Positions 25,648 to 60,518 of a DNA stretch of 64,000 nt are shown in pieces. The position numbers were made by a program, and so were the translations under genes. Below the pieces are notes generated by a model. It saw only the letters and a program-made list of their open reading frames with translations. It was not told the origin of the DNA and did not search any database. Position 1 is the stretch's first letter. Each line of letters starts with the position of its first letter. Origin of the DNA: Mesostigma viride. Taxonomy: Eukaryota; Streptophyta; Mesostigmatophyceae; Mesostigmatales; Mesostigmataceae. The stretch is taken from positions 2,165,279 to 2,229,278 of the forward strand of contig RPFO01000312.1 of the NCBI GenBank assembly GCA_009746045.1. Direction: 5' to 3'.

Positions 25648-25987
25648 CAGTGACTATTGCGTCTGCACCTAGAAGTCCAGGACTAAGCCTGCGGTACCAA
25701 CAGACCACAGGTTAAGGTTCCTATTTCCTGCGTACGAGGTATTAATCCAATACCGTCGTAGGTTCAGCACCTAATTCCTGTCAGCCCAGGAATTACTGTC
25801 GACCCCATATGTCGTCGGCAAATATTCACGTCCGACTTAGAAGAACAGCCGGCTCGCGCTCGCGCGCGACCGGGAAGTCGGAACGCCATAACTTTCTTGA
25901 TACTTGTCGGAATGAACTCGTTCCGGTGCCGCTGGAATCGCAGAGATATGCCGAATCAGGAACACGCCAATGCGCTTGGCGTTAACT

Positions 25988-29279: not shown

Positions 29280-29298
29280 CCAATCCCTTCTTTTCTTT
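29280..29298 (-). promoter_or_regulatory. Element D polypurine tract
   Basis: On the minus strand AAAGAAAAGAAGGGATTGG directly precedes the LTR start, nearly the same as in element C. Confidence 0.75.
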
Positions 29299-30972: not shown

Positions 30973-30991
30973 ACGCCACTCCCCCCCTTCT

Positions 30992-32151: not shown

Positions 32152-33140
32152 GCTGTACCCTGCTGCAGCCTGGTCCCAATGATGGAAACCTGAGAATTAG
32201 TGTCTACCTCTAAGGCAGTGTCCAGCCCCAGATTGCCATGCCACCTGAGCTTGGCTACCTTGGGCTGCTTCTTGGCTCTTTGTAGAGCCCCAATCAATCC
32301 AGCCAAACTTGTCCCCCTGGGCTTGGTTAGTGCCTTGGGCTTGACAGTTGACTCCCCAGCTGTTGACCTTGCAGCCTGTTCAACAAGTACCTCTGCAACC
32401 TGGCCAGGGCTGACAGATTCCCCTGCAACAGATGTGGTCGTTGCGTCAGTGATGTCACTTGGGACCTGAAAATCCTGCAGATCCTGTGAGCCTTGTGCCT
32501 GACTGCCCTCATTCATCAGGTTAGGCTTGACATATGACCAACTCAGCCGGTGCACATGCTTTGGTTCGTCCTCCATGCTGACCAAGCATGCGTGGCTAGC
32601 TTCATCAACCTGGGTAACCACCCCAGGACTCCAGCTACCACGTTTGCCATAAAGGCTAGGTTCCTTCCAAGCTAGGACCTTCTGACCCACTTGTGGCTCC
32701 AGCATCTTCCAACCCCGGTCCTTCTCCCTCAGCTTGGCAAAGGTGACATGTGCAGCATGTTTCCAGCCCTCCAGCACATGTGGTGGGCACAGGCCATGAT
32801 ATAGACCCATTGGGCTGACAGCAACTCCATCATAGTAGAAGTTAACCCTGCTGTTCAGCTGCTGCTCCACGTTCCTCAGCCATGCACTCCTGACAAGTGC
32901 AGGTGCAGACAAGGGTACCCAGTCTTCAGAGATGATCAATTTCTTGACCTCCTGGATTGCCCTCTCTATAGCACCCTGCTGCCCATGAGCCTCCCTAGGT
33001 GTAACCAGCAACTCAGGAAGGGTGGGATCACCCTTGAGATGCTGAAACTGCATGTCCACCTGGATCCTTGTGGTAGGAAACTTGGCTCTTACATTCTGCA
33101 GGGCAGCCAGCAAGTACCTGTTCTTCATAGAAGGTAAATG
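32148..33140 (-). CDS. Element D integrase second half, IN C-terminal domain and protease start
   Basis: Catalytic-core Asp in RIQVDMQFQ (about 33056) and Glu in HGQQGAIERAI (about 32966). An SH3-like stretch follows (VGQKVLAWKEPSLYGKRGSW), then KHVHRLSWSYVKP. After a Pro/Ser/Thr-rich linker the frame reaches EVDTNSQVSIIG near 32200, the protease active-site position. The protease therefore lies downstream of the integrase. D-T-N replaces the usual D-T/S-G. Confidence 0.82.
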   Translation of the reverse strand, partial: HLPSMKNRYLLAALQNVRAKFPTTRIQVDMQFQHLKGDPTLPELLVTPREAHGQQGAIERAIQEVKKLIISEDWVPLSAPALVRSAWLRNVEQQLNSRVNFYYDGVAVSPMGLYHGLCPPHVLEGWKHAAHVTFAKLREKDRGWKMLEPQVGQKVLAWKEPSLYGKRGSWSPGVVTQVDEASHACLVSMEDEPKHVHRLSWSYVKPNLMNEGSQAQGSQDLQDFQVPSDITDATTTSVAGESVSPGQVAEVLVEQAARSTAGESTVKPKALTKPRGTSLAGLIGALQRAKKQPKVAKLRWHGNLGLDTALEVDTNSQVSIIGTRLQQGTA

Positions 33141-33700
33141 CTCAGCACCTTGTATTTTGTGTACCTGTCCACGCACACCAACAGTTGCATGCCCCTGATG
33201 TGTTGGATATCACACTGCAGATCACCAATGCTCTGAGGTAGAGCTTTGGCATGTGATTTCCTGGGCTTGTTGGAGGACAACTGGCACTTACACCGTGAGG
33301 CAGCTTGCTGACACGCCTTGAGAAGGGGTGCCCTGCCCATACGGAAGGCAAAGTTGTTTGACAGAGAAGTGGCATGCCCAAACATGTTGTGGATTCGGGC
33401 ACCCAACTCCTGGTACACAGAGGAAGCAGTCCCTGGCACAGTCAGGACTGTGCTGTCAGGTTGTCCAGCATCACCATGCTGACTTCCATCCTGTTCTGAC
33501 TCAGAGCCTGAGTCACCCTGCTCATGCCCAACACCTGGACCGCCAGCAGGGACCACATGCATACCACCAGAGGCCTTCACACCCCTCTGTGGTTGTACAT
33601 TGGTTTCTCTCAAAATGAGAGGTCCACCCTCGTGCCCAGCACGAGGATGCATGGGGTCAGACATTCTTACAGCTGCACCAGCTGTCAAGGACGTCTTCAT
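33125..33700 (-). CDS. Element D integrase N-terminal part
   Basis: A polar linker, then the zinc-binding region IHNMFGH (His-x4-His) and ASRCKCQL (a Cys-x-Cys variant of Cys-x2-Cys). The first catalytic Asp follows in QCDIQHIRGMQLLVCVD. The core continues in the next frame after a shift around 33125-33140. No protease motif lies between the gag zinc knuckle and this domain. Confidence 0.78.
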   Translation of the reverse strand: MKTSLTAGAAVRMSDPMHPRAGHEGGPLILRETNVQPQRGVKASGGMHVVPAGGPGVGHEQGDSGSESEQDGSQHGDAGQPDSTVLTVPGTASSVYQELGARIHNMFGHATSLSNNFAFRMGRAPLLKACQQAASRCKCQLSSNKPRKSHAKALPQSIGDLQCDIQHIRGMQLLVCVDRYTKYKVLSIYLL

Positions 33701-33840
33701 AGGAACCTGTACCTCTCCAGGTGACCTGGGGCCACCCTGAACCTGGAGATCACCCTCTTGTTGCCCAGATATAAAATCTGCATTGGAGCACCTGGCCTCC
33801 CCCTGGGTGAATTAAGGTGTGTAGGGGTTGCCTCAGACAG

Positions 33841-34956
33841 TCACTGCTCCTTGTTGTCTTCTTGCTGACTGCCCTTTGAAGGCTGGCCTGCCTGGGACTT
33901 GTTCTTGTTGTTGTTTTTGTTGTTGTTATTCTTGTTGCTGCCCTGGCCCTGGGTCTTCTTGAAGCTGGGACACTCCTTCTTGATGTGCCCCCACCCCTTG
34001 CACAGGTAGCATTGGATCTTTGACTTGCCCTGGCCACTGCCCCCGTTGTCAGACGCGTTGCCCTGCTTGGGCTGACCACCCACCCGCCTGAACACCGACT
34101 TGGAGTGTGACCTCCCGTCAGGGTCGGGTGAATGATTGGCCTTCCGCTTGTTGTGGTTGCCCCTACGCCCTCCTTGGCTTCTGTCAGCCTCGGACGATTT
34201 GGAGCCCCCCTGGGTACGCCCACCTGCCTGGGTAGCCTTCACTGCTGGCACTCCACCCTCAAACAGCTCCTCTGCCTCGAGTGCTTGTTTGATTATGACC
34301 TTGTAGGCCTTGAGGGTTGAGTGTGGGGCACACATGACCTTTAAAGAGCCACGTGTAGCCTTGTCCAGCCCAGAAACCTTGAGCCAGTTTGTCAGGGCTA
34401 TGTTATCAGCAACATTGAAGCCGTGAGCCCTGCCCTCCTCAACCATTTTACAATAGTTAAGGAAGTTCTGGATAAGGTCTCCTTTGACCTCCCACCCTTG
34501 ATACTTGTCCTGCCAATGGATGCCGACCTTCTTGCGTTGGTCCTCCAGCAGCTCCTTCAGCTCAGCCACGTACAGTGCCCAGGCCTTATTGGCCTTCTTG
34601 CACTCCCTGGTCAGGTCCTTAATCTGGTCAGTACACTTGCCAAAAGTGCTACTTCCTATCCAGATCTGATAGTAATTTGTACCACCGTACAAGCTAGGGA
34701 ACCCTTCCAATCCTTCCACAAACTCTTCAGCCTGCTTGGGCTTGGAGTCTGATGTTACTGGCTGCAGCTGATTAACAATTAAAAGACCTTGAGTGGTAAG
34801 ATCAAAACCATGAACAGCTTGTGAATTATTAGGGTTGTGATGAACATTGGTAATTTCCCCGGTGACACCCACGTCATCTACGTGAGCTGTCCCACTACCA
34901 GCACCACCATTATTCCCGCTGGCTGGGGCACCTTTGCTACGGCGCCCGTCTGCCAT
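33841..34956 (-). CDS. Element D Gag
   Basis: 371 codons from MADGRRSKGAPASG. It has an N-terminal Gly/Asn-rich stretch and a helical capsid-like region (about 75-245, including NKAWALYVAELKELLEDQ). A basic linker follows, then one CCHC knuckle CYLCKGWGHIKKEC (about 315-328, at 33968-34011). It ends in an Asn/Lys tract and QQEDNKEQ. Structural protein of the particle; the knuckle binds RNA. An overlapping frame (33750-34223) runs past the gag stop toward Pol, which suggests Pol is reached by frameshifting. Confidence 0.85.
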   Translation of the reverse strand: MADGRRSKGAPASGNNGGAGSGTAHVDDVGVTGEITNVHHNPNNSQAVHGFDLTTQGLLIVNQLQPVTSDSKPKQAEEFVEGLEGFPSLYGGTNYYQIWIGSSTFGKCTDQIKDLTRECKKANKAWALYVAELKELLEDQRKKVGIHWQDKYQGWEVKGDLIQNFLNYCKMVEEGRAHGFNVADNIALTNWLKVSGLDKATRGSLKVMCAPHSTLKAYKVIIKQALEAEELFEGGVPAVKATQAGGRTQGGSKSSEADRSQGGRRGNHNKRKANHSPDPDGRSHSKSVFRRVGGQPKQGNASDNGGSGQGKSKIQCYLCKGWGHIKKECPSFKKTQGQGSNKNNNNKNNNKNKSQAGQPSKGSQQEDNKEQ

Positions 34957-35118
34957 TATGCACTACAAGCTATCCAAAACACCTGAGCTAAGCAGCAAAA
35001 TAAAGTATGTACAAAACTGTCTCAATTGCCGCCTGCGCCGGTGTCGCCGCCGCCCCCGCGAATCGCCGCTGAAAAATCGACAAAATGCCGACTTGTACGT
35101 GAAAACGGGCCGATTTAT

Positions 35119-35868
35119 TCAGTAATCGAGGCCGCGAAAATCACAGTACTGATAGGAGTACTCTGGATCCTCCATATCCGGCGTGTGTGCCGGACCTGCA
35201 CCCGTATGAATCAACACCGGAGTGTTCGCTGCGTTTTGCGTCGGCTCGAAAATTGCAATTCGCCGACGCGCGACGAGGCGCAGAGGATGAGTAAAAATTG
35301 AAAGCAACTCCCAGCCTGCGGGAATCCACTCGCGCAAGGCTGCGAGAAAGGCGACCAGGTTGATGAGCACCTGTCGCTCTCGACTGCGCACACCGCGTGT
35401 AAGCAGCGACAGCAGTGCGAGGTCTTGAAATAAATTCGTGGTGACCACCGGCGCGCCCCCCGTGCGTGTCGATGCCCAGTTTTGCAAATTTCTCTGGTAG
35501 CCGGTCAGCGAGGAAATGGCATTGTCGATCTCCTCGATAGCGGTGGTGACTTCAGTTACCGACCGCAAGCCGCCGCGGACCTGGACCGTAAATTGCGAAA
35601 GAATGTTTCGAATGGTGTCCAACGGCCCACGAATGGCCGGCACCAGCTGCGGCAGTTGGGGGTTCTCGGGAAAATCCCCGAGCAATGGGAGTGCTGCGCG
35701 CTGCCGACGATGGAGTTCGTCAAGCGAAATCGTGACCTCGTCAAGCAGTTGTTGCCACGATGGCGCAGCCGGCCTGGGCTCGCGCGGACGCGTAGCCGGT
35801 AAGGGGTCAGCCGGCGGTGCAGCTACCTCCTCATCAGTTGGAATGCGGAATTCCTCAGAATTTGGCAT
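35119..35868 (-). CDS. Element D ORF1, unknown protein between 5' LTR and gag
   Basis: 249 codons, MPNSEEFRIPTDEEV to RGLDY. The N-terminus is Pro-rich. A predicted all-helical middle (LDEVTISLDELHRRQRAALP, then ISQF-type and IEEIDNAISSLTGYQ helices) looks coiled-coil-like, and the tail is acidic and Tyr-rich. No retroelement domain is recognised. Element C has an ORF in the same place that is similarly helical with an acidic tail ending RGGLD. Position suggests it would be the first protein from the genomic RNA. Function unknown. Confidence 0.6.
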   Translation of the reverse strand: MPNSEEFRIPTDEEVAAPPADPLPATRPREPRPAAPSWQQLLDEVTISLDELHRRQRAALPLLGDFPENPQLPQLVPAIRGPLDTIRNILSQFTVQVRGGLRSVTEVTTAIEEIDNAISSLTGYQRNLQNWASTRTGGAPVVTTNLFQDLALLSLLTRGVRSRERQVLINLVAFLAALREWIPAGWELLSIFTHPLRLVARRRIAIFEPTQNAANTPVLIHTGAGPAHTPDMEDPEYSYQYCDFRGLDY

Positions 35869-35892
35869 GTTCGGAAAAAGGCGAGTAATACG

Positions 35893-36513
35893 AGTTGTGA
35901 GAGAGTGAATGCCCTGAATTCCGCCATGGTTCTTGCAGAAATGTTGCCTTTATTAAGAATAAGGAACACAGACGTAAGTCACGTCACTTCCAAGACTGCA
36001 CGCAGCACAGACGACAGGGTCGCAGTGCCAAGAGAACGTGCACGCAAGAACTAGCGTCCTAGAGCTACCAAGTCACACATATAGGTTGCTAGGGACGCGT
36101 CCAAGTATTCAGCTGCACTGTCACAGCTGAACTGTCAATCAATTGATTACACAGACTCTAGCACGCCTTTGGCGCGCAGATCTATCAATTGTCCATACGG
36201 CTAGTCCTGTGGACCTATCCGTACATTAATCAGCATCAATTGTCTCATAGGTCCTGGCGCTCTACAGCGCGCCTACCTATCAATTGACCATCAAGTCCTG
36301 TACAAGTCCTGTCAACGTCCTGCGGACTGTCATAGTGACACTTGTACATCCTGTGTCCGTACGCGCCCGCAGTGGCGCGCCGGGTACTGTCGGCACAGCC
36401 TAGGAAACGTCATAACTTTTACGTTCCTTAACCAAATGAGGCGTTCAATCAAGGTGCCGTTGGAAAGAGCGTAACAATCTCTATCCATCTAACGTAAATC
36501 CTTTACGTTAACT
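35893..36513 (-). repeat. Element D 5' LTR
   Basis: 621 bp. It differs from the 3' LTR by a 4-bp insertion (CAAT-CAAGG) and a few substitutions. After it, on the minus strand, comes CGTATTACTCGCC, with no TGG primer-binding site. Confidence 0.92.
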
Positions 36514-36518
36514 CCCAG

Positions 36519-37273
36519 GGGCAACTTGGTTCTCCGACCAGCAGTTCTCCTGTATGCTGAGGTCCCATGACAGAAACCTGTGCATTGGTATCTATCTCCA
36601 TGGCAGCTACCTCAGGTTCATCCAACTGGACAAGCTTGGACACCTTAGGCTCCTTCTTGGCTCTTTGCAAAGCCTGTACAATATCTGATAGACGCACACC
36701 CCTAGGCCTGGTGTCGGGCCGTTCCGGAGGTGCAGCCTGTCCGCCTGCTTGCCCAACCACCGTATGTGAAGGTACCCCAGGGGCCGGGCCAGGGTCACCC
36801 TGAGGGCTCGATACAGCTGTAGCACCCTGATCAGGAAGTTCCACGTCACCCCCGCCTTGTACACCAACGGGCACCCGGAAGAGGTCTCCTTGATTACCTC
36901 CCCGGGGACGGATCTTTGACCAGGACAGACGGTGCACTGCTTGGGAGCCATCAATGGCCACCCAGCACTTATGGCCAGCGGCTTCTACTCGGGTCACCAC
37001 CCCATCATGCCAGCTGCCACGTTTCCCTGGAAAGCTTGGCTCCTTCCACACAACAACCTGTTGTCCAACGTTAGGTTCTAGGACACTCCAGCCCTTGTCT
37101 TTCTGCCTCAGCTTGAGGAACTTGGCCTCTAGCTTCTCCTTCCATGCCTGCTCAGCATCAGCTGGCAGCATCCTGGTGTGCAGCATAAGGGGATTGATGG
37201 CAATGTCACCAAAGAACATGGGAGTCCTGAGGTTCAGCCTATCCTCCATAGAACGTAGCCATGCAGATGTCAC
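36519..37273 (-). CDS. Element C integrase C-terminal domain and protease active site
   Basis: About 250 codons. The end of the integrase core is RTPMFFGDIAINPL. The SH3-like part is VGQQVVVWKEPSFPGKRGSW and VHRLSWSKIRP. After a Pro-rich linker comes AMEIDTNAQVSVMG (about 36580-36600), the protease active-site position with D-T-N. The gene is then cut by element D and resumes at 28657. Confidence 0.82.
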
Positions 37274-37737
37274 AATGGCAGATGACGTCCTTGGAATCCT
37301 CCCACCAGCAGCACAGTCTTGATCTCTTGGATGGCTCTCTCCACCACCCCTTGCTGGCCGTGGCTCTCCCTGGGTGTAATCAGCAACTCTGGAAACTCTG
37401 GCAGGTTCTCACAGCACTCAAACTGAATGTCACACTGCAGCAACTCCAACCCAGGGTACCTGCTCCTTGTCAACTTCAGAGCAGCAATTAATGTAGGCTT
37501 CTCCATGTCAGGCAGGATCTCTAGGGTCTTGTACTTGGTATATCTGTCCACTGCCACTAGCAGCTTCAAACCCCTGATTCTCTGAATATCTACCTGCACA
37601 TGGCCTGGCTGCAAAATAGGAGACCTGGCATGAGACTGCTTGGGCTTTCTAGCAACTAGCCTGCACTTGCAAGCTTGAGCAACCTGTTGGCAGATGGAGT
37701 ACAACTCACTTCCTCCCAGCCGTCTAGCAACTTGCAA
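37270..37737 (-). CDS. Element C integrase catalytic core
   Basis: A CKC zinc-ligand pair (QACKCRLV), then the first Asp in HVQVDIQRIRGLKLLVAVD, the second in LLQCDIQFEC and the Glu in HGQQGVVERAIQ. The general shape follows copia integrases, but the usual 'GP' after the first Asp and the 'DNGxEF' form of the second motif are replaced (DIQRIRG, CDIQF). Frameshifts join it to neighbours at about 37730 and 37272. Confidence 0.8.
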   Translation of the reverse strand: MQVARRLGGSELYSICQQVAQACKCRLVARKPKQSHARSPILQPGHVQVDIQRIRGLKLLVAVDRYTKYKTLEILPDMEKPTLIAALKLTRSRYPGLELLQCDIQFECCENLPEFPELLITPRESHGQQGVVERAIQEIKTVLLVGGFQGRHLPL

Positions 37738-44657: not shown

Positions 44658-45950
44658 CTAGTTTGCATTGCGGCGCTGAGTGTTAATGAACTGCCTCCTG
44701 AGGGGCCCCGTCAGCTGGGCACCTGCTGCCTGCCCCCGGGTGACGCGGCCGTTGGCAGCCATCCACGCCCTGCCCGCCTTGCTTCGGGAGGACAGAGGCT
44801 GCATGGCCCGCTGGCCCGCCTCGTCGTCGTCCAGGCCAGCCACGGGGCCACCGTGGAACAGGTTCCAGCACGCGCCCACGCAAAGGGCCGTGTTGCACTC
44901 GCTGCACCAGAAGTTGGTGCGCTTGCGGATGTCCGCGCTCGAGCACACCACGCACCGGGCCGCCTCCGTCCACGGGATCCGCTCGGGTACCAGGTGGGTG
45001 CCGGAGAAGCGACCGTCCAGCCCCGGCACGGGCTGCGCAGCCAGCCGCTCCACCTCCAGCCTTGCGCCGTGCCAGCGGTTGTTGATGAGCTGTTCAGCCA
45101 GCTGGCGGATGAAGCCCACGTGGCTCAGGCAGTCGGGGCGGCCCGCGCGCATGAGCTGCTGCAGGATGTACGAGTTGGTGGCAGCATTGGCCAGCATGCC
45201 GGTGATGACCCGGTGCCACCACACACGCGTGATGAACTTGAGCAGGTCGTACTCCCCGCACAGCTGGTCGAACTTGTCCACCGCCTTGTAGCATGACCAG
45301 TAGGCGGGGATGAGGCTGGGCGCGGTCACCATCACGCGCTCGTCACGCCCACCGTGCCGGCTGACCATCTCCTCGGTCAAGGGGATGCCCTTCCCCAAGA
45401 CCCAGACCGGCTTGCGGTCGATCCAGCAGCTCAGCGCGAGGCCGTCCTTGTTGACCGCCCACGCGTACGTGCCCTGCGCCGGCCTGCGCCCCAGCAGGCC
45501 CTTGAGCTCGGCGACGGGCAGCCCGCGGCGGTTGGGCAGCACCGTGCCGACCACCCGGTGCCCCATGTCGTAGCACGCCTCCACTGCCGGGCGGGACGTG
45601 TAGAAGCGGTCCATGGCGATGGTGGTCGGCTGCGGCAGGGTGGCAGCCAGCATGTTCACCACGTGGAAGGTGTGGTCGACCTCGGGCAGCTTGTCGTACG
45701 TGTGCGCGTGCCACAGGTAGCCGGTGGGCCACTCGTTGACGCAGTACTGCTTGATGTGGAAGGGGGCTGGCTTCTGCGGGTTGAAGCAGCGGATGGGGCA
45801 CAGCTTGTGCCGGGAAGCGATGGAGCGCTCGTCAATGGCCGCCGCGCTGCCCGGCACAAAGTACCGCTTGGACGCCACGTTCAGAATGTCCTCCAGCCAC
45901 AGGAACTGCCACAGCTTCCACTCGCGTGTGAGGGACCGTGTTGGCTGGGC
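44658..45950 (-). CDS. piggyBac transposase, catalytic and Cys-rich part
   Basis: Counting from the Met codon at 45995, the DDE core shows Asp in AAAIDERSIASRH (about residue 55), TIAMDRFYTSRP (about 129) and AVDKFDQLCGEYD (about 240). The spacing is like that of characterised piggyBac enzymes. WWHRVITGMLANAATNSY follows. The C-terminal cysteine-rich domain (about 348-382) has CVVC, FWCSEC and ALCVGACW pairs. It cuts and joins DNA at TTAA sites in the nucleus. The true protein starts upstream at 47001; a frameshift in the 45920-45960 region splits the gene. The coding region is much more GC-rich than the flanks. Confidence 0.9.
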   Translation of the reverse strand, partial: AQPTRSLTREWKLWQFLWLEDILNVASKRYFVPGSAAAIDERSIASRHKLCPIRCFNPQKPAPFHIKQYCVNEWPTGYLWHAHTYDKLPEVDHTFHVVNMLAATLPQPTTIAMDRFYTSRPAVEACYDMGHRVVGTVLPNRRGLPVAELKGLLGRRPAQGTYAWAVNKDGLALSCWIDRKPVWVLGKGIPLTEEMVSRHGGRDERVMVTAPSLIPAYWSCYKAVDKFDQLCGEYDLLKFITRVWWHRVITGMLANAATNSYILQQLMRAGRPDCLSHVGFIRQLAEQLINNRWHGARLEVERLAAQPVPGLDGRFSGTHLVPERIPWTEAARCVVCSSADIRKRTNFWCSECNTALCVGACWNLFHGGPVAGLDDDEAGQRAMQPLSSRSKAGRAWMAANGRVTRGQAAGAQLTGPLRRQFINTQRRNAN

Positions 45951-47001
45951 GGTCAGCCGAGTCCTGGAAGTGCAAAAAGTGAGCAATCTGCTCAAAGCGG
46001 CGGAGGGGCAGGATGTGCTGCAGGTTCACAGCTTGGGCAGCACCCATGGCCTGCCCAGAGAAGTAGTCGGCACGGGAAGGAAGCACCACGAGCGACATGG
46101 TGAACAAGAGGCCCAGAAACTTGCCCAGCTCGTTCATGGTCAAAGGATACCACTCACGTGTCCCAGCAGCTGCAGCACGTTGCTTCTCAGCAGCATACCG
46201 GTTCGTCTCGGTCACAATCTTCTGAAGCACAGGCCCAGGCTGCCAGAAAAGAAGGAAGATGTCCAGAGGCGTGAACCTGTAAGGCACGCCCGGGATGTTC
46301 TTGAACGTCGCAGCACGAACCGGAGCTGGCGCATACTGAACGTGAGGAAGGGAGGCTGGGTTGGGCGCGCCAGTGCCGGTCACCCAGCGGTCGCCATCCT
46401 CCACCTCGTTCCCGCCCTCCCCGTCCTCCTCCGACTCGCTGTCAGACGCTGCCAGGCCCGGGACTTCATCGTCCTCGGACGACGCGGATGCCTCGGACAA
46501 TTCCGGAGTTGCCTGCCGGGCTGCACGCCTTCTTGGAGGGTTGTAGATGGCTGGCGCCCTCCTCGCATTGCCAGAACGGCGCTTGGCACGCTTCTTGGCC
46601 GGTGACCTTGTGCTTTCACCGCCATAGCCATCATCGTCGCTGCTGGACTCCGACGACGACTCAGAATCATCCGGTGCGGCATCGTCGCTGCCCCGCCCAT
46701 TGTCTGCCCCCGCAGCGACCTCCTGCCCAGCCTCGCCTTCGGCAGATGATCCCCCAACTTTGTACCGAAAAATGAGCTCCTTGTCGAGCTTATAATGCTT
46801 GGGATCTGGCGGAAAATGGCACTTGGCGGCCTTCTTGTTCGCAAGAATTGACATTACGGTTCCATCCAGGCGCATTTCCTCATGATTTTCGCCAAAATTT
46901 GCGACAGCCCAGCCTTCTCCGAAAATTCTGGGAGGCACAGAAACTTTTAAGCCCACCACGAGCCTAAAATTCGCTAGCAACTGCATGCCACCTGCCGCCA
47001 T
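45920..47001 (-). CDS. piggyBac transposase, N-terminal part
   Basis: From MAAGGMQLLANFRLVVG. About 200 residues are Asp/Glu/Ser-rich with a basic patch AKKRAKRRSGNARR (a possible nuclear localisation signal). The conserved piggyBac N-terminal domain follows, with FTPLDIFLLFWQPGPV, MNELGKFLGLLFTMSLVVLP and RFEQIAHFLHFQDS. The combined protein would be about 770 residues, longer than the roughly 590 of the classic enzyme because of the acidic extension. The frame then shifts into the catalytic part. Only one break is seen, so the copy could be active if that break is a sequencing error. Confidence 0.87.
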
Positions 47002-47658: not shown

Positions 47659-47663
47659 GGCTT

Positions 47664-48071
47664 AGTTAGCTGAGATACCTCGAGGCTGACTTGTGGCCGG
47701 AGCCACACAGGGGAACATACAGTGTGACCGGAGTTATTCTGGCGGAGACAGAATAACGGTGCCGAGCGCCGGTTGTGGCGCGACGCACACACGTGTGCGC
47801 AAGTTACGTAGCTAGCAACTAGTCTAGTGGACGTTGTGCGTAGTAACGTTGCTCCAGGTCTAGAAGCCTCTAGAACCTGGACACGTGGCGGACAAGTGAG
47901 CGTAGTCCAGTTGTCCTAGGGATCTCGTGTGAGTGATGTGTCCACGACATATAATGTGTGCCCACATATGGAGTGAATAATGACAAGGAACGCCCGATCC
48001 CTGGCGTTGCTGCAGCCATCATTCTCACACTGAGTCCCCAACGTCTCCGACGTACATATATATATCTAACT
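47664..48071 (+). repeat. Element B 5' LTR
   Basis: 408 bp, AGTT...AACT. Followed by TGGATTAGACATGG, where the TGG could serve as a primer-binding site and ATG is the first gag-region start codon (48082). Confidence 0.93.
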
Positions 48072-48081
48072 TGGATTAGAC

Positions 48082-51065
48082 ATGGCGCCGAAGAACTCGG
48101 AAGCTAAGAACAACAATGTCCGTCCCACCCTTCAGCGGGGAGGGGCAGGAAACGGTCGGGGTCGGCCTCCCGCTAACCGGGAGCCCCCCATTACCACGAG
48201 ACTGCCTTTCCGGCGTCTCAGAGGAGAATTTCTCCTCGCAGTTCCCCACCGCGGGAGCGTGACGAAAATGTCACCTACCGCATGGTGGTGGCGGACACCC
48301 CTCGCCGGCAGCGTGAAGCTGTCGCTGCCGAGGAGTCTGCCCCCCAGGGGAACAGGGGCACCGGGACTCGCAACGAGTCCGAGGTTGCCCCGCACCTCAT
48401 GCCACCCGCCCCAGGGCGACAGGTGGAAGAGGATTCCTCCTCTATGGAGGAGGGGGAGGCTTCACCCTCTCCTAGGAGAGAGGTGACCTCCGGCCAGACG
48501 AGGTCCTCGTCTGGCAACACCTCTGTCGGGAGGGCGCTGGCAGGCATGAGCCTCGGCGCGAACCCGACCCCTGCGTCCCAGGACGCAGGTGAGGTTTATG
48601 TTGACGGTTGGGGCCAGCTCCCCTTCAAGATCCCGGTGCGTAATGCACCAAATTTTCTGCCTTTCGACGGCTGGCGACTCCGCCAGCAGAGTACCCTCCC
48701 TGGCGGCTTCGTCCTGACCAAGTTCGCGGTTCAGGCGGTGGCGGCCGAGCTCCCGGAGGACGTCCATTGTCGTTTTTCGCATGTTCAGGTTGCGATTTTG
48801 ATCCGGCTGTACTTCTTGGCCGTGAGACAAGGAGTAACGGCTCTCGACATGTATTCGGAGGCTCGCCAGGTGGCAGCGGCCACGGTGGTGGCCAAGCCAC
48901 CTCGGCCGGCCGAGGAGATGCCAAGGATGCCACCTGTCGTGCCAGTCGGCTGGGGACCTGCGACGGCATCCCCTGGTTCGGCAGCGACATCGACTGCGTC
49001 GCAGCAGCTGGCTGCAACTGTGTCGCCCCCGGCGTCGGCGGCGACCTTGCCGGCCGCGGCATCCAAGACTGCAGCACCGGTGGGCGCCCCGTCTTCTCCA
49101 GTGGTGGCAGCGACAGCGACAGCGACAGCGACAGCAGCAGCGACAGCGACAGCGGCAGCGACCCCTAGGCGGGCGGAGGGCAAGCGCCAGCCGCCTCCCC
49201 ACGACACACCCGCCGCTGAGTCGGCACCGTCGGCATCAGCCGACAACACCAACGCCATCACCACCCACCCCCCACGAAGGCGGGTGCTTCGGCACCCCCA
49301 TCGCAGTCCCAAGCCCCCGGCAGGGCCGGCAAGGGACCTGCCACGGCCCAGGCCGTGGCAAGGGATCATCCATCTCCCCCAGGGGAGGAGGATGTGGCCA
49401 TGGAGACAGCCGAGGCACGCATCCCTGGGGATGACGTCGTCTCACTCCGTGAGCCAACCCTTTGGCGCGCAGTCCAGCGCTGCGCCCAGGGTATCCAAGG
49501 GGTGGCCAGCGAGAGGCTGGACGACAGGTTGGCTGAACACACCAGCCTGTTGTGTGCGATCATCTATCATTTGCTCGATCAACCCTCGATTGAGCCGATG
49601 ACCAGGAGGATGTGCGAGGCACTCCTGCCCGCCCTGCAGACCTTGCTGCGAGGCAAGAAGATCAGGGTGAACTGGCGATGGTGGAGATGGTGCAGACGTT
49701 GCACCGGGTGTGCATGCAGCAAGCAAGTATGTATCTCCCCACTTGGTTGCGTGTACAGACAGGTAGCCAGCAGGGGGGGGACGTGCAGCAGACAAGCTCA
49801 TCTAGCAGTGAGGATAGTGATGTTTCTCTCACCCCTACCTTTGAGCAATGGGAGGCAGCTAGGGCACGCAAGAGGCAGGCACAGAGTCAGGGTGTGCAGG
49901 GGGGCATGGACATGTCATCTTCACCAACACATGTTGTGCAGGCACCTAACCCCCCAGTGCAGCCAGCCACGCGTAGCAGGCCCTCACAGGTCTCACCTAG
50001 CATCCCACACACTGCCAATGCTGCTACATCCCCAGGCAGGTCTTCTTCTCCCTCCCCCTCTTCACCCTCTCAGGACTGGCCAGTCTATAACGAGCATAGG
50101 CCAATTGACAGGCCAGCAGCCTGCTCTTTGATCAGCTTCTTCTCTCTCTCAAGCTCGCTAGGGAGGAGCTGAATATCAAGAACTGGTTTGGGGCACTTAT
50201 GCAGGGTGATTTCTTCCACCAATCCAATCCCTCCATCCAGCACTTGGTATCCATATATCAGCAAAGGTATCCCAGGTGGCAGGACACACAGGGTAGGGAG
50301 CCATGGGAGAATTTTCTGCGTGATCTGCATGACCTGCTGTCTGCTCCCACCACTGTTGACATGTACTCTGCGTTTAACTGGGTGAAAACCTATAAGGTAG
50401 AAACTCAGAACTATGTAGCAGAGATCAAGAATGGGAACTTGCAGTGAAGGCCCACCCCGAGGTTAGCAAGCTAGATCACAAGTGGCTTGTTCATTCCCTG
50501 CTCGAGAAGCTTAACCTTGATCGTAACACCTTTGCCATGATCACCACAGGCTTGGCCACCCATTGGGAGTCGATGAAAGAGGCTCTCGATTATGTTAAGT
50601 TAGCCCTGGGTCCACTGTGTCAGGACTCAGCCCCTCCCCCCTCTACCTCTTCCCCCCTGCGTCAAGCGGGCACGGGGGGAGGAATCAGATGAGGAGGGTA
50701 AGGCCAGGAAGGCCAAGGACAAGCGTCCTGTGACGCTAGGGGAGGTGAAGACTCTTATGAGTCAGTTTGTTAAGAGCCTCAAGGGCAAGGGCAAGGGCAA
50801 GGGCAAGGGCAAGGGCAAGGGGCAGGGGAAGGGGAAGGGTAGGTCATCCCCCCCAGGGGGGAACGCTAACAAGTCTTCTGGGGCTGGGTCCTCCACCCCC
50901 AAGAAGGATGTGAAATGTGTGCGTTGTGGGCGTCGTGGACACAGCAAGGACAAGTGCCACAAACACAAGGAGCACCTGCGCACCTGGAGGTGCTCTGCCA
51001 CAAGTGCCTGGGACCGCCTCACGGGGACCCCGCCAAGTGCACCAAGGAGCCGTGGCAGCCCCTAA
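48082..51065 (+). CDS. Element B Gag region, split by several frameshifts
   Basis: A chain of open segments in changing frames. The first is a Gly/Arg-rich start (48082). The next (from 48282) carries PFKIPVRNAPNFLPFDGW and an Ala/Thr repeat to about 49340. Then come a helical stretch ERLDDRLAEHTSLLCAIIYH (about 49500), a Ser-rich linker and a capsid-like block FFHQSNPSIQHLVSIYQQRY (about 50210). HKWLVHSLLEKLNLD follows (about 50480), then a (GK)n tract and a CCHC knuckle CVRCGRRGHSKDKC (about 50917-50958). The capsid-like blocks match element E. Breaks fall near G/C runs. Because the LTRs are identical and Pol is intact, indel base-calling errors are a plausible cause. Pol is in the +1 frame relative to the knuckle frame. 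Confidence 0.75.
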
Positions 51066-54000
51066 ATGTAAGTCCTCACACCCTCACACGTGTCATGATG
51101 AGTCGTGTCCCCTACACCACCCAATATCCAGCTCCACTGCCCAGGCAGGGACACAGGATGGGAGGATGTTGACAGGATGTCAAGTTAACTCTGTTACCTC
51201 TCACTCTCCACCTTCATGCTCAGCTGTCAAGGCTGTAAGCAAGGTTGGCAAAGTGTTGAAGTATTACACAGAAACCTCTGACAGTGAACCCAGGTTCACC
51301 TCCTTGATACCCAAGGTGTCCAGGGTCATGACCCAAGCTCTTAGTAACATCAGTTATGAGGAGCTGGCATTGCAACTGCACTTACTGTATGGTCATGAGA
51401 CATGTGCAGAGGTGGTAGCAGCTGCATTGGGAGGTACGGCACTCAGGAAGGCATGTCAGCTGATCAGAAAACACTGTCAGCACTGCCAAATGTATGCACC
51501 TAAACCACCCAAGTGGCATGTAGCTACACCACCTAAGTGCAAGGGCAGAGTGGTCGGGGATGTGTTCCATATTAAGGGACAGCCCTATCTGGCTTTAAAG
51601 GACGCATGGTCCAGGTACACAGCAATAGAACCTCTCCCTGGTATGGACAAGTCTCAGTTGCACAGAGCTATATTAATAGCACAAGCCAGGTACTACCCAG
51701 TAGAAGCACTGCTGTTAGATCAGCAATTTAGTTGCCTTGCTGGGGCAGAGGGCTGTGAAGCTATAGACCTGGCTGGGCTAGAAGATCATGAGAGACAAGG
51801 TATCATTGAGAGGGCAATTAGGTCTATCAAAACCTTGGTAGCCAAAGAAGGTGAGAACCTGTTAGCTGACAGTGGGTCATACGCTGATAGGGCACTGTGG
51901 GCTACTAAGATATGCCAGATACTCAATAGACGACCACTCCTGCAGACACCCTATGGTATTATCACACCAGATGGGTTACAGGCTGGGATATACCCACCTG
52001 AGGTACTAGCTGTGTACAATGCACAGCGTGCCCACGCTGCCAGCAGATTGGCAGCCAAGGATGCCAAGCATCCACGCCCCTCCTTCAAGGAAGGGGACAC
52101 AGTTCTCTTCTATAAGGAGTCAGGGCTAGGGAAGGTTGGGACATGGTTAGGCCCAGCCACTATCCTTAAGTTTTCCAGCACAGGCAAGACTGTGCATGTG
52201 AAACACAATGACACTGGGCATGTGCACAAGTGCTCACCTCACAGGATTAAATTGTATTACACTCCACTGTCAGACGTGGCAGAGGAGGAAGAGCTGATGG
52301 TCGACAGCTCAGTACAGTTGCCTGGTATATCTGGAGTACCCAGTGAGTGGTTGTTTGGAACACACACTGGTGAGTGTGATAGCCACAACACATGTGCACC
52401 CCAGGTCACCCTCAGTGAGCCTAGCCAGCCACAGCAGGTTAGACCACCTGTCAATGAGGGCACTAACCAAGAAGGTGGTCAGCAAGACAGCACACCTTCA
52501 GCGGTACCAGCTCAACCCATACCTACCGTGTCCAAACATGGGCTAGCAGAAGCGGTCCGCATACTGCAAGCAGCGCATAGAGCCAAAGCTCACACTGCTG
52601 CAGGGTCAGCCAAAGTGAGTAGGGCAGGTCACAGCGACAACAATCCAGCTCTAGTCGCGGTTGACACCCAAGCTCAGGTTAGCATCATCAGTGCATTGGC
52701 TGTACCACACCTAGAGTTAGAGCCTTCCCCTTGGCAACGGGTGGCTGATTTCTCTGGGCAGGCTAGCTTGACTGTTAAAGGTCAGGTTACCTTAAACATT
52801 CTTGGTATCCCCACACCTTTTCAGGTACTGGAAGGATACACAGGAAATGCTTTGTTGGGTGATCCATTTATTTCTTACCCAGGTGTCACCATCTCTTGTG
52901 ATAGGCTTGAGGTACAGGGCCTGGGTGGGGTGTCACTTGATCATTTTCAGGTACCACTCCAGACTTTGGTTGACACACAGCCAGCCACTGTCAAATTTGT
53001 TGCACCAAAGTATGCACCTGGGCACGAGCCACGTGTGGCAGATTTGGTGCACAGTCAGAAACTGCACCCCAAAGCATTTGGATTGGGAAAGTATGATGTT
53101 GCAAAAATGTCTCCCCTCTCCTATGAGCAGATTGTCCAGGACTGTCAAACTCAGGAAGGTTTCACTAAGTGGGTTGAAGCTTTTAGAAAGGCTATGGATG
53201 AATGGGTGGTTCCAGATCCACGTAGTCCCACCCACACACCTCCAGTCACTCCCTTAGAGCGTAAGCCCAACGGGAGCAAGCACCTAAGACTTAAGTTCGT
53301 GTGCAAGCACAAGCAAGCAGCAGATGGCTCTGTCATTTTCCATGCTAGGCCTTGTGTGACTGAGTTTAAGGGATCCACTGATTTGACAGAGGCAGATCTG
53401 TATACACCTGGCATTCAGCAAACTTCTCTTAAAATTTTGCTGTCTGTTTTTCTAGGGCACATCAATCAAGGTGATGATTATGTGTGCAAAGCCACTGACA
53501 TTAAACGTGCATTTCTGAAAGGCTCACCTGAAATAGCTGAGCAAGTTTGGCATGGGAAGGTGTATGTGGTCAACACACCTCAGGTGTGGTCTAAGGATAT
53601 CCCACAACCATTTCTGAAAGCCAACATAGGAGTGGAAGGTCTGCAATCTGCTCCTAGAATTTTCAGAATGTCAGCTCAAGCTGTGTTTGAGAAGCTAGGT
53701 GCTCGGTATGATGACATAGACCCTTGCTTCTTTGTTGTCCCTCACCCTCATGGCATGATCATGTTTGTGTGGCATGGGGATGATCAGCTTATTGCTGGGC
53801 CTAGGCAGGCTGTGGATGATTTTATTGCCAACGTGTCTAAGTCTTTTGAGATTGGCAAGCAGCTAGAGCTGGGCACCATTGCTATTAAGTTCTGTGGCAC
53901 AATGTTGCAGCTTCAGAAGCAAGCAGATCAGTGGGTCTGTGCAATGTACTCTCCATCAGATTACATGCACAGTTGTAAGGAAGTGCTGCAGACTAAAATC

Positions 54001-54711
54001 AAACCTTGTGACTGTCCCACCATTAGGGGCAAGCTGGGGTGGTTGTGTTCTACTTGTGCACCACACTTGGCAGTAGTCAGCAGGGTTGATGATGCAGTTC
54101 TTATGCAGGTAGGCCACAAGGCTATCAACAAGCTCCTGCAGGCTGGTCCACCCCTTATCTTGCATTCCCTGGAACTCTTTAAGCCCATTCACATTCAGGC
54201 TATAATGGACAGTTCCATGGAATCACGGCAGATTACTCAACTGCAGGCTAGGGAGGCTGGCTTATTTTTTGTACAAAATGCTGACCAACCCATGTCACTC
54301 ATCTCATGGTATAGCAGGCTACATAGGCGTAAAGCTGTTAGTAGCAATGCTGCTGAGTGCAGGGCAGTTGTGTCAGCTGTGCTACATGCCAGGTATCTCA
54401 ATCATGTCCTGGTTTGGTTACAGAAGCAAGCAGGCAGTCAGGCTGGGGTGGTGGCTCACTTGCACACCGACAGTCAATCTCTCCTCAGTTTCCTTGACAA
54501 CCCTTATGCTGTGCATACTGATTTGGACTGGGTGATCCTGAAACAGGAGTGCACCTACTGGGAGTCTACCAATCATGTGCCGGACAAGGCCAACGCCGCG
54601 GATGCGTTGACCAAGGTGCCCCAGCTAGCACCTGAGCAGTACCAACTGCTCTATCACATGATGAACCCCTACGGCAAGCAGGCCAGCCTGCCCCCGCCGG
54701 TAGACACCTAG
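50917..54711 (+). CDS. Element B Pol: integrase - protease - RT (HGDD) - RNase H
   Basis: An uninterrupted 1,264-codon frame. Integrase zinc finger His155/His160 and Cys187/Cys190. Integrase catalytic Asp215, Asp268 and Glu298. C-terminal SH3-like region about 385-445. Protease-like domain about 575-665 with VDTQAQVSII (Asp583) and ALLGDP (647-648). RT about 780-1090 with motif A TDIKRAFLKG (Asp861) and catalytic HGDD (953-956; 53773-53784). RNase H about 1090-1230 with Asp1098, Glu1147 and Asp1185, closing in ADALTKVPQ. The first 80 or so residues overlap the gag zinc knuckle in another frame, so translation probably enters by +1 frameshifting and the first Met is not the true start. The enzymes would copy and integrate the element. 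Confidence 0.92.
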   Translation: MCVVGVVDTARTSATNTRSTCAPGGALPQVPGTASRGPRQVHQGAVAAPKCKSSHPHTCHDESCPLHHPISSSTAQAGTQDGRMLTGCQVNSVTSHSPPSCSAVKAVSKVGKVLKYYTETSDSEPRFTSLIPKVSRVMTQALSNISYEELALQLHLLYGHETCAEVVAAALGGTALRKACQLIRKHCQHCQMYAPKPPKWHVATPPKCKGRVVGDVFHIKGQPYLALKDAWSRYTAIEPLPGMDKSQLHRAILIAQARYYPVEALLLDQQFSCLAGAEGCEAIDLAGLEDHERQGIIERAIRSIKTLVAKEGENLLADSGSYADRALWATKICQILNRRPLLQTPYGIITPDGLQAGIYPPEVLAVYNAQRAHAASRLAAKDAKHPRPSFKEGDTVLFYKESGLGKVGTWLGPATILKFSSTGKTVHVKHNDTGHVHKCSPHRIKLYYTPLSDVAEEEELMVDSSVQLPGISGVPSEWLFGTHTGECDSHNTCAPQVTLSEPSQPQQVRPPVNEGTNQEGGQQDSTPSAVPAQPIPTVSKHGLAEAVRILQAAHRAKAHTAAGSAKVSRAGHSDNNPALVAVDTQAQVSIISALAVPHLELEPSPWQRVADFSGQASLTVKGQVTLNILGIPTPFQVLEGYTGNALLGDPFISYPGVTISCDRLEVQGLGGVSLDHFQVPLQTLVDTQPATVKFVAPKYAPGHEPRVADLVHSQKLHPKAFGLGKYDVAKMSPLSYEQIVQDCQTQEGFTKWVEAFRKAMDEWVVPDPRSPTHTPPVTPLERKPNGSKHLRLKFVCKHKQAADGSVIFHARPCVTEFKGSTDLTEADLYTPGIQQTSLKILLSVFLGHINQGDDYVCKATDIKRAFLKGSPEIAEQVWHGKVYVVNTPQVWSKDIPQPFLKANIGVEGLQSAPRIFRMSAQAVFEKLGARYDDIDPCFFVVPHPHGMIMFVWHGDDQLIAGPRQAVDDFIANVSKSFEIGKQLELGTIAIKFCGTMLQLQKQADQWVCAMYSPSDYMHSCKEVLQTKIKPCDCPTIRGKLGWLCSTCAPHLAVVSRVDDAVLMQVGHKAINKLLQAGPPLILHSLELFKPIHIQAIMDSSMESRQITQLQAREAGLFFVQNADQPMSLISWYSRLHRRKAVSSNAAECRAVVSAVLHARYLNHVLVWLQKQAGSQAGVVAHLHTDSQSLLSFLDNPYAVHTDLDWVILKQECTYWESTNHVPDKANAADALTKVPQLAPEQYQLLYHMMNPYGKQASLPPPVDT

Positions 54712-55708
54712 TCCACCCCTCCCCAGGGAGGGTGGCTAGTCTCCCCACCCCTACTATGGGGCAACCCCTGTCAGGGGGTAGGGGTACCCAGACCCAGGCC
54801 CAGGCCACGGGGTGTCTTATCATCAGCACTAGTTCCTGGGGAGGAGCTGAACCTGTATGCCTTGTAAGCCCTGTTTTATGGTGAATAAATGGAGTCTCTT
54901 TGACCTCGTCTCTCTCATGGAATTTCGTTAGCTCGTCTCTTGGGAGGTGAGCTGTCAATCCTTCACAAGTGTGTCATTGTCATGGTGACAGTACTTGTAC
55001 ATGGCATTGTTATGTGGCTGGGTCATGTTCATGGTTACCTTGTACATGTGCATGTGCATGTGCATGTAACGTGTGACAGTCTTAGTCTTGTGACTGTGCC
55101 TGTTGTGTCTTATGCTGCCATCTGGTCCCAGGACCTGTGGTAGGGTGATGGGCAGTCCACCCATTCGCCATGTGCAAATCAAGTGGAGAACCAGTTCCCC
55201 TTGTCAGTTGCCTGTGCTTACCACCATGTGGCACTCACAGGTATCTGGCTGCTCTGGCCCAGGTCAGCAGTGGCAAAACATCAGGTCCTAAGCACCTGGG
55301 GAAGACCTCTGGTTTCACTAGAGTCATCCCATTGGTTTTTGGGAAGTGGATGTTGCATGGGGTTCCATCCACAAGTGGCAATCAAGCCCCCCTTTTTCTA
55401 CCATCTGCAGTGACAGATGCCAGGGAAATGACGACAATTCGCTCCTTCAAAGATGGAAACTGGGCACTCCTTATATGCTGTGACATGTGACTTGCATGAC
55501 GTCCTGTGTGACGAATGGCCGCAGTACCTCATTTATGTTTTCCCCACTATTGAGGGGGAGGAACCCCCGTAGTGCTTGGCAGGGTTAAATCAGCAGTCAG
55601 CATCAGTATAGTCCGTTTCTGGGGCCCTTCTCTAATCCAGTTGTGACTGTATGGGCTCTGGTTGCCTTGCAACGGTTGGTAGGTCAGACTTGGAGCATGT
55701 TCCAATCT
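54712..55708 (+). other. Element B 3' untranslated region
   Basis: About 1 kb without a supported open frame. Includes (CATGTG)n-like sequence near 55040-55065. A long 3' UTR of similar size is also present in C and D. Confidence 0.55.
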
Positions 55709-55726
55709 GAAAGAAAACATAATGGG
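55709..55726 (+). promoter_or_regulatory. Element B polypurine tract
   Basis: GAAAGAAAACATAATGGG lies directly before the 3' LTR start (AGTTAGC). Compare GAAAAGAAAGGATTGG before AGTT in C. Confidence 0.65.
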
Positions 55727-56134
55727 AGTTAGCTGAGATACCTCGAGGCTGACTTGTGGCCGGAGCCACACAGGGGAACATACAGTGTGACCGGAGTTAT
55801 TCTGGCGGAGACAGAATAACGGTGCCGAGCGCCGGTTGTGGCGCGACGCACACACGTGTGCGCAAGTTACGTAGCTAGCAACTAGTCTAGTGGACGTTGT
55901 GCGTAGTAACGTTGCTCCAGGTCTAGAAGCCTCTAGAACCTGGACACGTGGCGGACAAGTGAGCGTAGTCCAGTTGTCCTAGGGATCTCGTGTGAGTGAT
56001 GTGTCCACGACATATAATGTGTGCCCACATATGGAGTGAATAATGACAAGGAACGCCCGATCCCTGGCGTTGCTGCAGCCATCATTCTCACACTGAGTCC
56101 CCAACGTCTCCGACGTACATATATATATCTAACT
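55727..56134 (+). repeat. Element B 3' LTR
   Basis: 408 bp, same length as and apparently identical to the 5' LTR. Followed by the GGCTT target duplication. Confidence 0.93.
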
Positions 56135-56139
56135 GGCTT

Positions 56140-58898: not shown

Positions 58899-60518
58899 AT
58901 GGCTATCAACAACAAGAACGTTGCGAAGAAGTTGGACTTTAACGATGGTGATGATGGGCAGGATAGGCGGCTGCCCAAGGACAACAACAAGAAGCCGGCT
59001 TGGGATGCGGCTATTTCTAAGAAAAAGAAGAAAAACAAGAAGAACAACAATGTCTGCCAGGAGGAGGGGACGGCTGCCGCAAGGCAGACCGACCTACCCC
59101 CCTCCCCTGAGAAGCCGGAGGACGAGACGGTTCCCCCCCGGGGAACCGACTTACCCTCGACTCCGGCGGCTGCGACAGCCGCAACCACGGCTGGAGCAGC
59201 CATGGCTGTGGAGCCCTCGGCGGTCAACCCCCCCGAGGCCCCACAGTTCGGCCCTCAGTTGCCGACCCTTCGGGAGCTCATGCCCCGACAGACGGCGTCT
59301 GTGGCGCCGGACGGGACGATCACTTTTCGTCCCGCCACGTCCAATCTTCATGTCCCCTTCGCCCAGGGACACAATTTTATCGAGCTTCAGCTCGGGCGGC
59401 CTTCCATGCTCCTTCGAAAGAAGAAGGACATGGAGAGCGTAAAGCTCACGCGGGTGCTGCGCAGGCCCGTTGACCCCATCGGAGGACAACCCATGTCCGA
59501 CGATGAGGTCTCGGACACCGCCAGCCTCCCCGACGGGGAGCAAGAGATAACCCTCACCCCAGCGCTCCTGGCGGTGGAGCAGGCCGCGCTGGTGGCCAAC
59601 GAGGAACGTCGCGCGCGGCAGCGCGACCGGGAGGTCCGTCGCGAGACAGCCTTTTGGCTCGCTGCCAAGCGGCAGGAATATGAGGAGGAGGCCGCCCGTC
59701 GCCTGGCTACCCACCAGGCGATGGCGGAGGCGTACCGTGAGGCAACTCAACGGCTACGCGACCTTCTTAAAAATGCTGACTATCAGATGGAATACTCTGA
59801 GGGTCAAGACCTGGCCGCGCTCGCGCGGTCAGCCCATTTCAAGGCCATGAAGTCCATAACCCAATCAAGGGTAACGGCGGCCATATTGGCCCAGCATGGG
59901 GTGGTGACTGAGGAGTCCCCCCCGCTGGCAGCCCCCAAGGGACCCTACCCCCCCCAACCCTGTCAATCCAAGGAGGGCCTTCTGGTCCTGGACCAGGGGA
60001 AGGGAAAGAGGAAGGACTTTAATGTCAGGGATGCTCTGGTGGTGGGAGACCCCCTGCCTGAGATCCTCTCTGATGAGGCAGCCTTTCAGGCTGCCCTAAG
60101 AGAACATGAAATTCGCAAGGAGATGAAAAGGCTCCAAAAGGAAGAGGCAGCGAGGAGGGCAGCGGCAGACACCCCTGCACGCCCCTTCACCGCTGGGGCT
60201 GGCCCTAGCGGGGTCACACGGACCCCCCCGGCCTCACCCCGGGCCCCCAGGGCCCCCTCTCCCCCTCCCCCACCACCCCAGGTTCGCCCTGTGGGCTGGG
60301 GCCCCCTCCCCACCCAAGGGGGGTGCCAGGACCCCAGGAGGCCCTGGGGGGAGGTCCAGAGGTGCCCAGGGCACCCACCAACCCACCTGCTGAGGCCCCC
60401 CCACGTCAAGGGGATATTCAAGAACAGGTGGCCATCCTTCAGGCCCAGCTGGCCTCTCTTCAGGACCAACAATTGTCAGCCAACCAGCTGCAAACAATGG
60501 ATGGCCTCAGGGCCTTGA
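58899..60518 (+). CDS. Element E Gag N-terminal extension
   Basis: From MAINNKNVAKKLDFNDGDDG. A Lys/Asn-rich start (KKKKKNKKNNN) is followed by a Pro-rich part, then TITFRPATSNLHVPFAQGHN. A long charged helix (about 225-300, EERRARQRDREVRRETAFW and RRLATHQAMAEAYREATQRL) is probably coiled coil. After about residue 470 it becomes Pro-rich, and the true reading probably shifts near 60320 (a G-run) into the next frame. Function beyond Gag is unknown. Confidence 0.6.
   Translation: MAINNKNVAKKLDFNDGDDGQDRRLPKDNNKKPAWDAAISKKKKKNKKNNNVCQEEGTAAARQTDLPPSPEKPEDETVPPRGTDLPSTPAAATAATTAGAAMAVEPSAVNPPEAPQFGPQLPTLRELMPRQTASVAPDGTITFRPATSNLHVPFAQGHNFIELQLGRPSMLLRKKKDMESVKLTRVLRRPVDPIGGQPMSDDEVSDTASLPDGEQEITLTPALLAVEQAALVANEERRARQRDREVRRETAFWLAAKRQEYEEEAARRLATHQAMAEAYREATQRLRDLLKNADYQMEYSEGQDLAALARSAHFKAMKSITQSRVTAAILAQHGVVTEESPPLAAPKGPYPPQPCQSKEGLLVLDQGKGKRKDFNVRDALVVGDPLPEILSDEAAFQAALREHEIRKEMKRLQKEEAARRAAADTPARPFTAGAGPSGVTRTPPASPRAPRAPSPPPPPPQVRPVGWGPLPTQGGCQDPRRPWGEVQRCPGHPPTHLLRPPHVKGIFKNRWPSFRPSWPLFRTNNCQPTSCKQWMASGP

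Follow-up and report, generated by a model that had tools for sequence, protein, structure and literature searches.

We analysed a window of 64,000 nucleotides from the streptophyte alga Mesostigma viride (assembly GCA_009746045.1, contig RPFO01000312.1, positions 2,165,279 to 2,229,278; coordinates below count from the first letter of the window), which is crowded with nested mobile elements. Among these is element B, a long terminal repeat (LTR) retrotransposon on the plus strand at 47664-56134, which together with two older copies, C and D, is probably a new variant of LTR retrotransposon from an old chimeric lineage. The 408-bp LTRs of B (5' LTR, 47664-48071; 3' LTR, 55727-56134) differ at 0 of 408 positions, and GGCTT lies on either side of the element as a 5-bp target duplication (47659-47663 and 56135-56139), so that B is a recent insertion. 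A Gag CCHC zinc knuckle, CVRCGRRGHSKDKC, is encoded at 50916-50957 (Pfam zf-CCHC_4, E = 0.089) in a frame that overlaps pol; judged by position, pol is shifted by +1 with respect to this gag frame. We found that pol runs from stop to stop over 1265 codons without a stop (50914-54711; 1265 amino acids), so that the intact frame reported by an earlier note on this DNA is confirmed. Motifs, the Pfam reverse transcriptase (RT) family RVT_2 and Pfam and Protein Data Bank (PDB) profiles place in it, in the order which that note had proposed, an integrase, a retropepsin-like domain, a copia-type RT and an RNase H.

Elements C and D lie on the minus strand. Element C (20775-43497) carries nested insertions, has the LTR ends AGTTAACG...CGTTAACT and is flanked by a GAGGG target duplication. 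Its integrase is preserved as two pieces in different frames (36803-37737), and the first half of its protease-like domain lies at 36519-36649, with DTNAQVSVM from 36592 downward; the second half (ILGQNFL from 28547 downward), RT and RNase H occupy 26742-28657. Between the DTNAQVSVM and ILGQNFL halves, the domain is split by element D (28663-36513), which is inserted there with a CTGGG target duplication. The integrase of D (32490-33403), which aligns with those of B and C, is in pieces in different frames, its protease-like domain (31870-32312; DTNSQVSII from 32204 downward, LLGQNFL from 32016 downward) is frameshifted, and its RT and RNase H (30253-31700) are likewise in pieces in different frames. 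Both older copies keep the domain order of B in collinear pieces. Identity to B is 33-37% for the four pieces from the protease-RT-RNase H part, and 20-37% for a wider set of seven, some of them misaligned. The left LTR of C (20775-25987) is itself interrupted by an element whose 809-bp LTRs (21136-21944 and 24840-25648) are 99.4% identical and in which an open reading frame (ORF) gives a match to Pol_BBD, the copia protease model.

Paired LTRs and 5-bp target-site duplications identify B (GGCTT), C (GAGGG) and D (CTGGG) as LTR retrotransposons. Read in element orientation, the LTR ends AGTTA...AACT are common to all three (AGTTAG...CTAACT in B), in place of TG...CA. Ends of the TG...CA type are usual for LTR retrotransposons and are not essential. 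According to the passage of PMC2806351 drawn on here, they are missing in 3 of 26 families.

The integrase of B combines the features expected of a DDE integrase: an N-terminal HHCC-like motif (HLLYGH ... CQHC; 51382-51486) aligned with the C and D pieces, a D-D-x29-E core (51559-51810) and a C-terminal SH3-like barrel (52099-52254). The catalytic triad is aligned in B, C and D and against the integrase of human immunodeficiency virus (HIV), and the core is also supported by Foldseek. Counted from 50914, its residues are 216, 269 and 299; they were correctly given before as D215, D268 and E298, numbered from a GTG at 50917. In the aligned elements 29 residues separate the second D from the E, a shorter distance than the usual 35, and C and D read CKC where B has CxxC. 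Pfam reported no integrase family in B; for the C piece at 37273-37737 it gave rve at E = 0.023, below the cut-off. When the profile of all three integrases was compared with the PDB, 11 matches were obtained at E≤10, six of them retroviral integrases (one named only 'Pol protein'), and the best (E = 0.03) aligned the catalytic D and the QGVVE region. On the other side, an unrelated kinase came second in this search (E = 0.093), and the B integrase segment alone matched no PDB integrase at E≤1, its one match, at E = 0.015, being unrelated. The AlphaFold2 model had low confidence, with a mean predicted local distance difference test score (pLDDT) of 51.8; its best part was the barrel, modelled with five strands, which had blocks at 74-83 and one at 56. 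The best 50 of 1457 Foldseek matches of this model in the PDB (E≤10) were all retroviral integrases (best E = 3.5e-7), and 96 matches had E≤0.001. Template modelling (TM) scores among the matches listed were 0.13-0.20 by query and 0.15-0.26 by target. Because of the pLDDT of the model and these low TM-scores, we regard the predicted integrase as established in its domains and not in their overall arrangement.

The RT of B (53260-53859) matched RVT_2 above the cut-off, at E = 6.2e-10 and 1.4e-10, and four of the nine alignment members matched this family at E≤1. RVT_2 was the only RT family reported; the RT is thus of the Ty1/copia type, and neither RVT_1 nor a terminal integrase, as in Ty3/gypsy, was found. 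Where copia RTs usually have YVDD, the active-site box reads HGDD in B (53773), C (27648-27659), D (31130-31141) and P0002, a relative from Prorocentrum lima. The RNase H lies at approximately 54190-54615 and carries the motifs DSSM, AECRA, TDS and AADALTK, which are conserved in B, C, D and P0001, a relative from Mesostigma viride. The region 54001-54708 had no Pfam match, and an RT-RNase H profile had no PDB match at E≤1.

A protein search with B alone found no relatives, and one with the alignment found five, 61-86% identical: P0001 and P0004 from Mesostigma viride, and one each from Prorocentrum lima, Lingulodinium polyedra and Alexandrium andersonii. A search with the integrase-plus-protease part returned P0004 only. 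The three dinoflagellate proteins are limited to RT or RNase H and have no bearing on domain order; among the five, only P0004 does, and it starts within the integrase tail. Over 342 residues, P0004 aligns collinearly with B 52207-53226 (69% identity), from the end of the integrase tail through the linker and the protease-like domain, where it reads DTQAQVSII, to a point about 34 bases short of the RVT_2 match. The cores of integrase and RT are both absent from it. At the DNA level, searches of viral sequences with B, C and P0002 found no relatives, nor did searches of plasmid and prokaryote sequence collections. The high identity between dinoflagellate and streptophyte sequences hints at transfer between hosts, with contamination of cultures as an alternative.

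These data bear on whether the domain order could be an artefact, produced when ordinary copia elements were rearranged, misassembled or mis-framed. The frameshifts and nested insertions in C and D would fit such an origin; nevertheless, B is uninterrupted within identical LTRs, the pieces of C and D share no more than 33-37% identity with B, and P0004 shows the same arrangement, so that we strongly disfavour an artefact and consider it very improbable. The earlier note had argued that three diverged elements with one order speak against a rearranged single copy. The three diverged copies stand, with D frameshifted and C split by D, but they do not amount to three rearrangements, and one ancestral event is the simplest account.

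The retropepsin-like domain of B comprises residues 576-680 (52639-52953). VDTQAQVSII starts at residue 583, with DTQ at 52663, and LLGDPF follows 64 residues on, at residue 647, with LLG near 52852. In the B segment, Pfam reported only two families, PF13975 gag-asp_proteas (E = 0.025-0.037) and PF12382 Peptidase_A2_2 (E = 0.16-0.19), both below the cut-off and both retropepsin families. We aligned six sequences, namely B, the Mesostigma segment and fragments of C and D, and compared the resulting profile with the PDB. All eight matches at E≤10 were named proteases, four of them as HIV-1 protease, and the best single-chain match placed profile positions 37-97 on residues 35-97. When reversed, none of the six sequences matched a Pfam family, and the reversed profile had two PDB matches, both unrelated (best E = 0.15). 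The motifs DT[QN][AS]QVS and [IL]LG occupy corresponding positions in B, C, D and P0004.

Several observations weigh against this identification. Only two of the six alignment members matched PF13975, and the unrelated families DUF6898 (E = 0.023) and TAP35_44 (E = 0.13) matched one member each. The eight PDB proteases are largely versions of a single enzyme; the best values (E = 0.024 and 0.042) belong to tethered dimers, in which both copies contribute to the score, and the best single chain, at E = 0.57, is worse than the reversed-profile control. The PDB alignments span the half from the flap to ILG and leave the catalytic loop outside. The B segment alone matched no PDB protease, its three matches being unrelated (E = 0.33-0.73), and full-length P0004 had no Pfam match. 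A model of the domain from six sequences had a pLDDT of 39.5 and was uninformative on the retropepsin fold; Foldseek gave nothing significant for it (24 matches at E≤10, best 1.2), with the retroviral-protease-like domain of Ddi1 at rank 19 (E = 8.5). Every retropepsin match is weak, and the assignment draws on matches that are weak and consistent. No E-value taken singly rises above noise, so that the evidence lies in the identity of the matching proteins, in their register and in the agreement of two libraries. The segment might instead be another small beta domain or a linker that resembles a retropepsin by chance, as noise-level E-values (0.57 for the best single PDB chain against 0.15 for the reversed profile, and 0.023 for an unrelated Pfam family) and the uninformative model would allow. 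We consider this improbable, given that Pfam and the PDB both rank retropepsins first in a collinear register, that the reversed sequences match no Pfam family and that the two motifs recur in position across B, C, D and P0004.

We also searched for a protease upstream of the integrase, where Ty1/copia elements carry theirs. Twenty-seven sense-strand ORFs of at least 60 amino acids, taken from stop to stop between the 5' LTR and the integrase (13 in B, seven in D and seven in C), gave no match to a protease family in Pfam at E≤10. Four D[ST]G[AS] strings occur upstream (B 49148, D 33514 and 35045, C 39852); none is followed by an ILG-type string or has a protease context, and the ORFs that hold D 33514 and C 39852 had no Pfam match. 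The statement that no protease lies between Gag and integrase thus held in these searches, with the reservation that an upstream protease as diverged as the domain described here could escape detection. The copia protease model itself works on this genome, since an ordinary copia piece in the window (23200-24774) matched Pol_BBD at E = 2.9e-14.

The end of the domain bears on its origin. It reads LLGDPF in B, ILGQNF in C and LLGQNF in D, which is the LLG/ILG type and not the LLS of copia, and in Pfam the domain had no match to Pol_BBD at E≤10. Llorens et al. 2009 (PMC2774666) report, in the relevant passage, that nearly all Ty1/copia proteases have LLS and that ILG predominates in all others. 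The LLG/ILG ending, together with the report of PF13975 and PF12382, suggests that the domain was acquired from another kind of element. Alternatively, copia's own protease could have moved from before to after the integrase and drifted later toward ILG, with no gypsy contribution. A shuffle inside one element would be the shortest path to a Pol whose RT is copia-type, and hhalign pairs the flap regions of the domain and of the window's copia protease, at a probability of only 0.48%, which lends no usable support either way. Such a relocation seems rather unlikely to us, as the domain has LLG/ILG where LLS would be expected and matches PF13975 and PF12382 in place of the Pol_BBD that is so readily recognized in the window's normal copia element. 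With modest confidence, we therefore favour acquisition from a non-copia element, going by these sequence features. The label 'copia-derived' that had been given to the whole Pol accordingly fits the RT, by RVT_2, but does not seem to fit the protease-like domain.

To our knowledge, the glycine of the D-T/S-G motif is near-invariant in retropepsins. An objection to an active enzyme is that the expected DTG reads DTQ in B and P0004 and DTN in C and D; this replacement, present throughout, had gone unremarked when the retropepsin-like domain, since supported by weak but consistent Pfam and PDB matches, was first described. The domain has nevertheless been constrained. Between C and D, the second half (84 codons) has a ratio of nonsynonymous to synonymous differences (pN/pS) of 0.47 (bootstrap 0.34-0.64), similar to the values for integrase (0.57-0.63), RT (0.44) and RNase H (0.39); compared with B, the domain gives 0.61 for C and 0.55 for D. 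These ratios are rough, because pS, at 0.61-0.81, is near saturation, a further point of caution. B and P0004 agree at 82 of 105 positions in the domain, 52 of 90 in the main linker, and 25 of 35 and 64 of 90 in the flanking stretches. The pN/pS ratios and the better conservation than in the main linker show that the domain is maintained by purifying selection; with DTG replaced by DTQ or DTN despite this selection, we leave its proteolytic activity putative.

A conserved pseudo-protease would account for this combination. The retropepsin fold would then be kept without cutting, as a dimerisation or spacer module that separates integrase from RT, and processing would be done by another protease or not be needed. 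In keeping with such a role, DTQ (B, P0004) and DTN (C, D) are fixed by lineage and do not look like chance mutations, and the domain is constrained. Conversely, the domain retains the Asp and the LLG/ILG loop, and no other protease is evident in the upstream ORFs. Loss of activity is also uncertain by comparison with a survey of human endogenous retrovirus K (ERV-K) proteases (Turnbull and Douville, PMC6058741), which, in the passages drawn on here, classes some motifs without the glycine (DTRAD, DTEAD, DTDAD, DTVAD, DTAAD) as 'potentially active' and others as inactive. We regard a pseudo-protease as a real possibility, short of an even chance.

Overall, we consider it likely that B, C and D form one old lineage of LTR retrotransposons with a chimeric Pol, in which the integrase, of the HHCC/DDE kind, directly follows Gag and a non-copia retropepsin-like domain precedes a copia-type RT and RNase H. 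One ancestral swap or move of the protease, followed by long divergence, could account for all copies. Gag-Pol would be made through a frame change after the zinc knuckle, where the gag and pol frames of B differ by +1. The central protease-like domain would dimerise in the particle and, if active despite DTQ or DTN, could cut on both its sides and free the integrase and the RT-RNase H, and the integrase would insert the DNA with a 5-bp duplication. More tentatively, the elements may belong to an unrecognised deep lineage that is present in dinoflagellates as well as in a streptophyte alga, perhaps through transfer between these hosts, and whose chimeric Pol contains a gypsy/retrovirus-type retropepsin with DTQ or DTN as a new active site or as a structural pseudo-protease. 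Such a lineage, if real, may go unseen, as annotation based on Pfam and on TG...CA ends misses its integrase, its protease and its LTR ends.

Comparison with known systems places this arrangement outside each of them. The domain has in common with retropepsins (HIV-1 protease, PF13975) the register from the flap to ILG and the D-T opening of the active loop; unlike them, it has DTQ or DTN in place of DTG, sits after the integrase and scores below the cut-off. Petunia vein-clearing virus (Caulimoviridae) is a pararetrovirus with another genome plan. It resembles B, C and D in having an upstream integrase, which according to the passage used of PMC2774666 lies upstream of gag. The Gmr1 clade of Ty3/gypsy also has an integrase position unusual for its family, but these are gypsy elements with the integrase downstream of the protease (PMC2774666, same passage), whereas in B, C and D it is upstream of the protease-like domain and the RT is RVT_2. 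With Ty1/copia (Pseudoviridae), including diatom CoDi elements, B, C and D have in common the RVT_2 RT, an integrase upstream of the RT, a terminal RNase H and a CCHC Gag. They differ from Ty1/copia, whose order is protease, integrase, RT, RNase H, in placing the integrase before the protease-like domain, in the ILG type of that domain without a Pol_BBD match or LLS, and in the LTR ends AGTT...AACT. The passages drawn on give the same Ty1/copia order for CoDi elements (PMC2806351) and for the copia elements of a plant survey (PMC6317226).

Llorens et al. 2009 (PMC2774666), in the part used here, distinguish five integrase positions: downstream of the protease (all known copia, Gmr1), downstream of RNase H, lost, truncated and reversed (REM1), and upstream of gag (petunia vein-clearing virus). 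A position between Gag and the protease is not among the five in that part. The order integrase, protease-like domain, RT, RNase H was not found in the titles and abstract openings of the literature searched, nor was an integrase-first order in the passages used of PMC2774666, PMC2806351 and PMC6317226. Domain order is one main basis for sorting LTR retrotransposons into families, and the rule that ties a copia-type RT to the order protease, integrase, RT, RNase H does not hold for a Pol that begins with the integrase and has a protease-like domain of non-copia type. This arrangement also raises the testable question of how processing of such a Pol takes place and whether DTQ or DTN is compatible with a working retropepsin. 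Elements of this kind may be lost from large surveys: as the passages used of PMC6317226 describe, Neumann et al. treated an unexpected domain order as a likely misprediction and removed the elements concerned in every case, and they used TG/CA ends for de novo prediction.

Elsewhere in the window, searches for tRNA genes and Rfam families gave no match, and a 539-amino-acid ORF at 58899-60518 had no Pfam match. At approximately 2370-7900, a unit of 8 bp, which reads TGTGTGCG in 4001-4180, is tandemly repeated over about 5.5 kb, with no A in 4001-6000; this repeat accounts for six overlapping ORFs of more than 1700 amino acids. An RNase H of the RT_RNaseH_2 type at 18437-19099 (E = 4.2e-34) indicates that ordinary gypsy-type elements are also present. 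On the minus strand at 44661-47001, two overlapping ORFs match complementary parts of DDE_Tnp_1_7 (E = 2.3e-23 and 3.3e-21), a family that we take to be piggyBac-type, and apparently represent one transposase split by a frame change.

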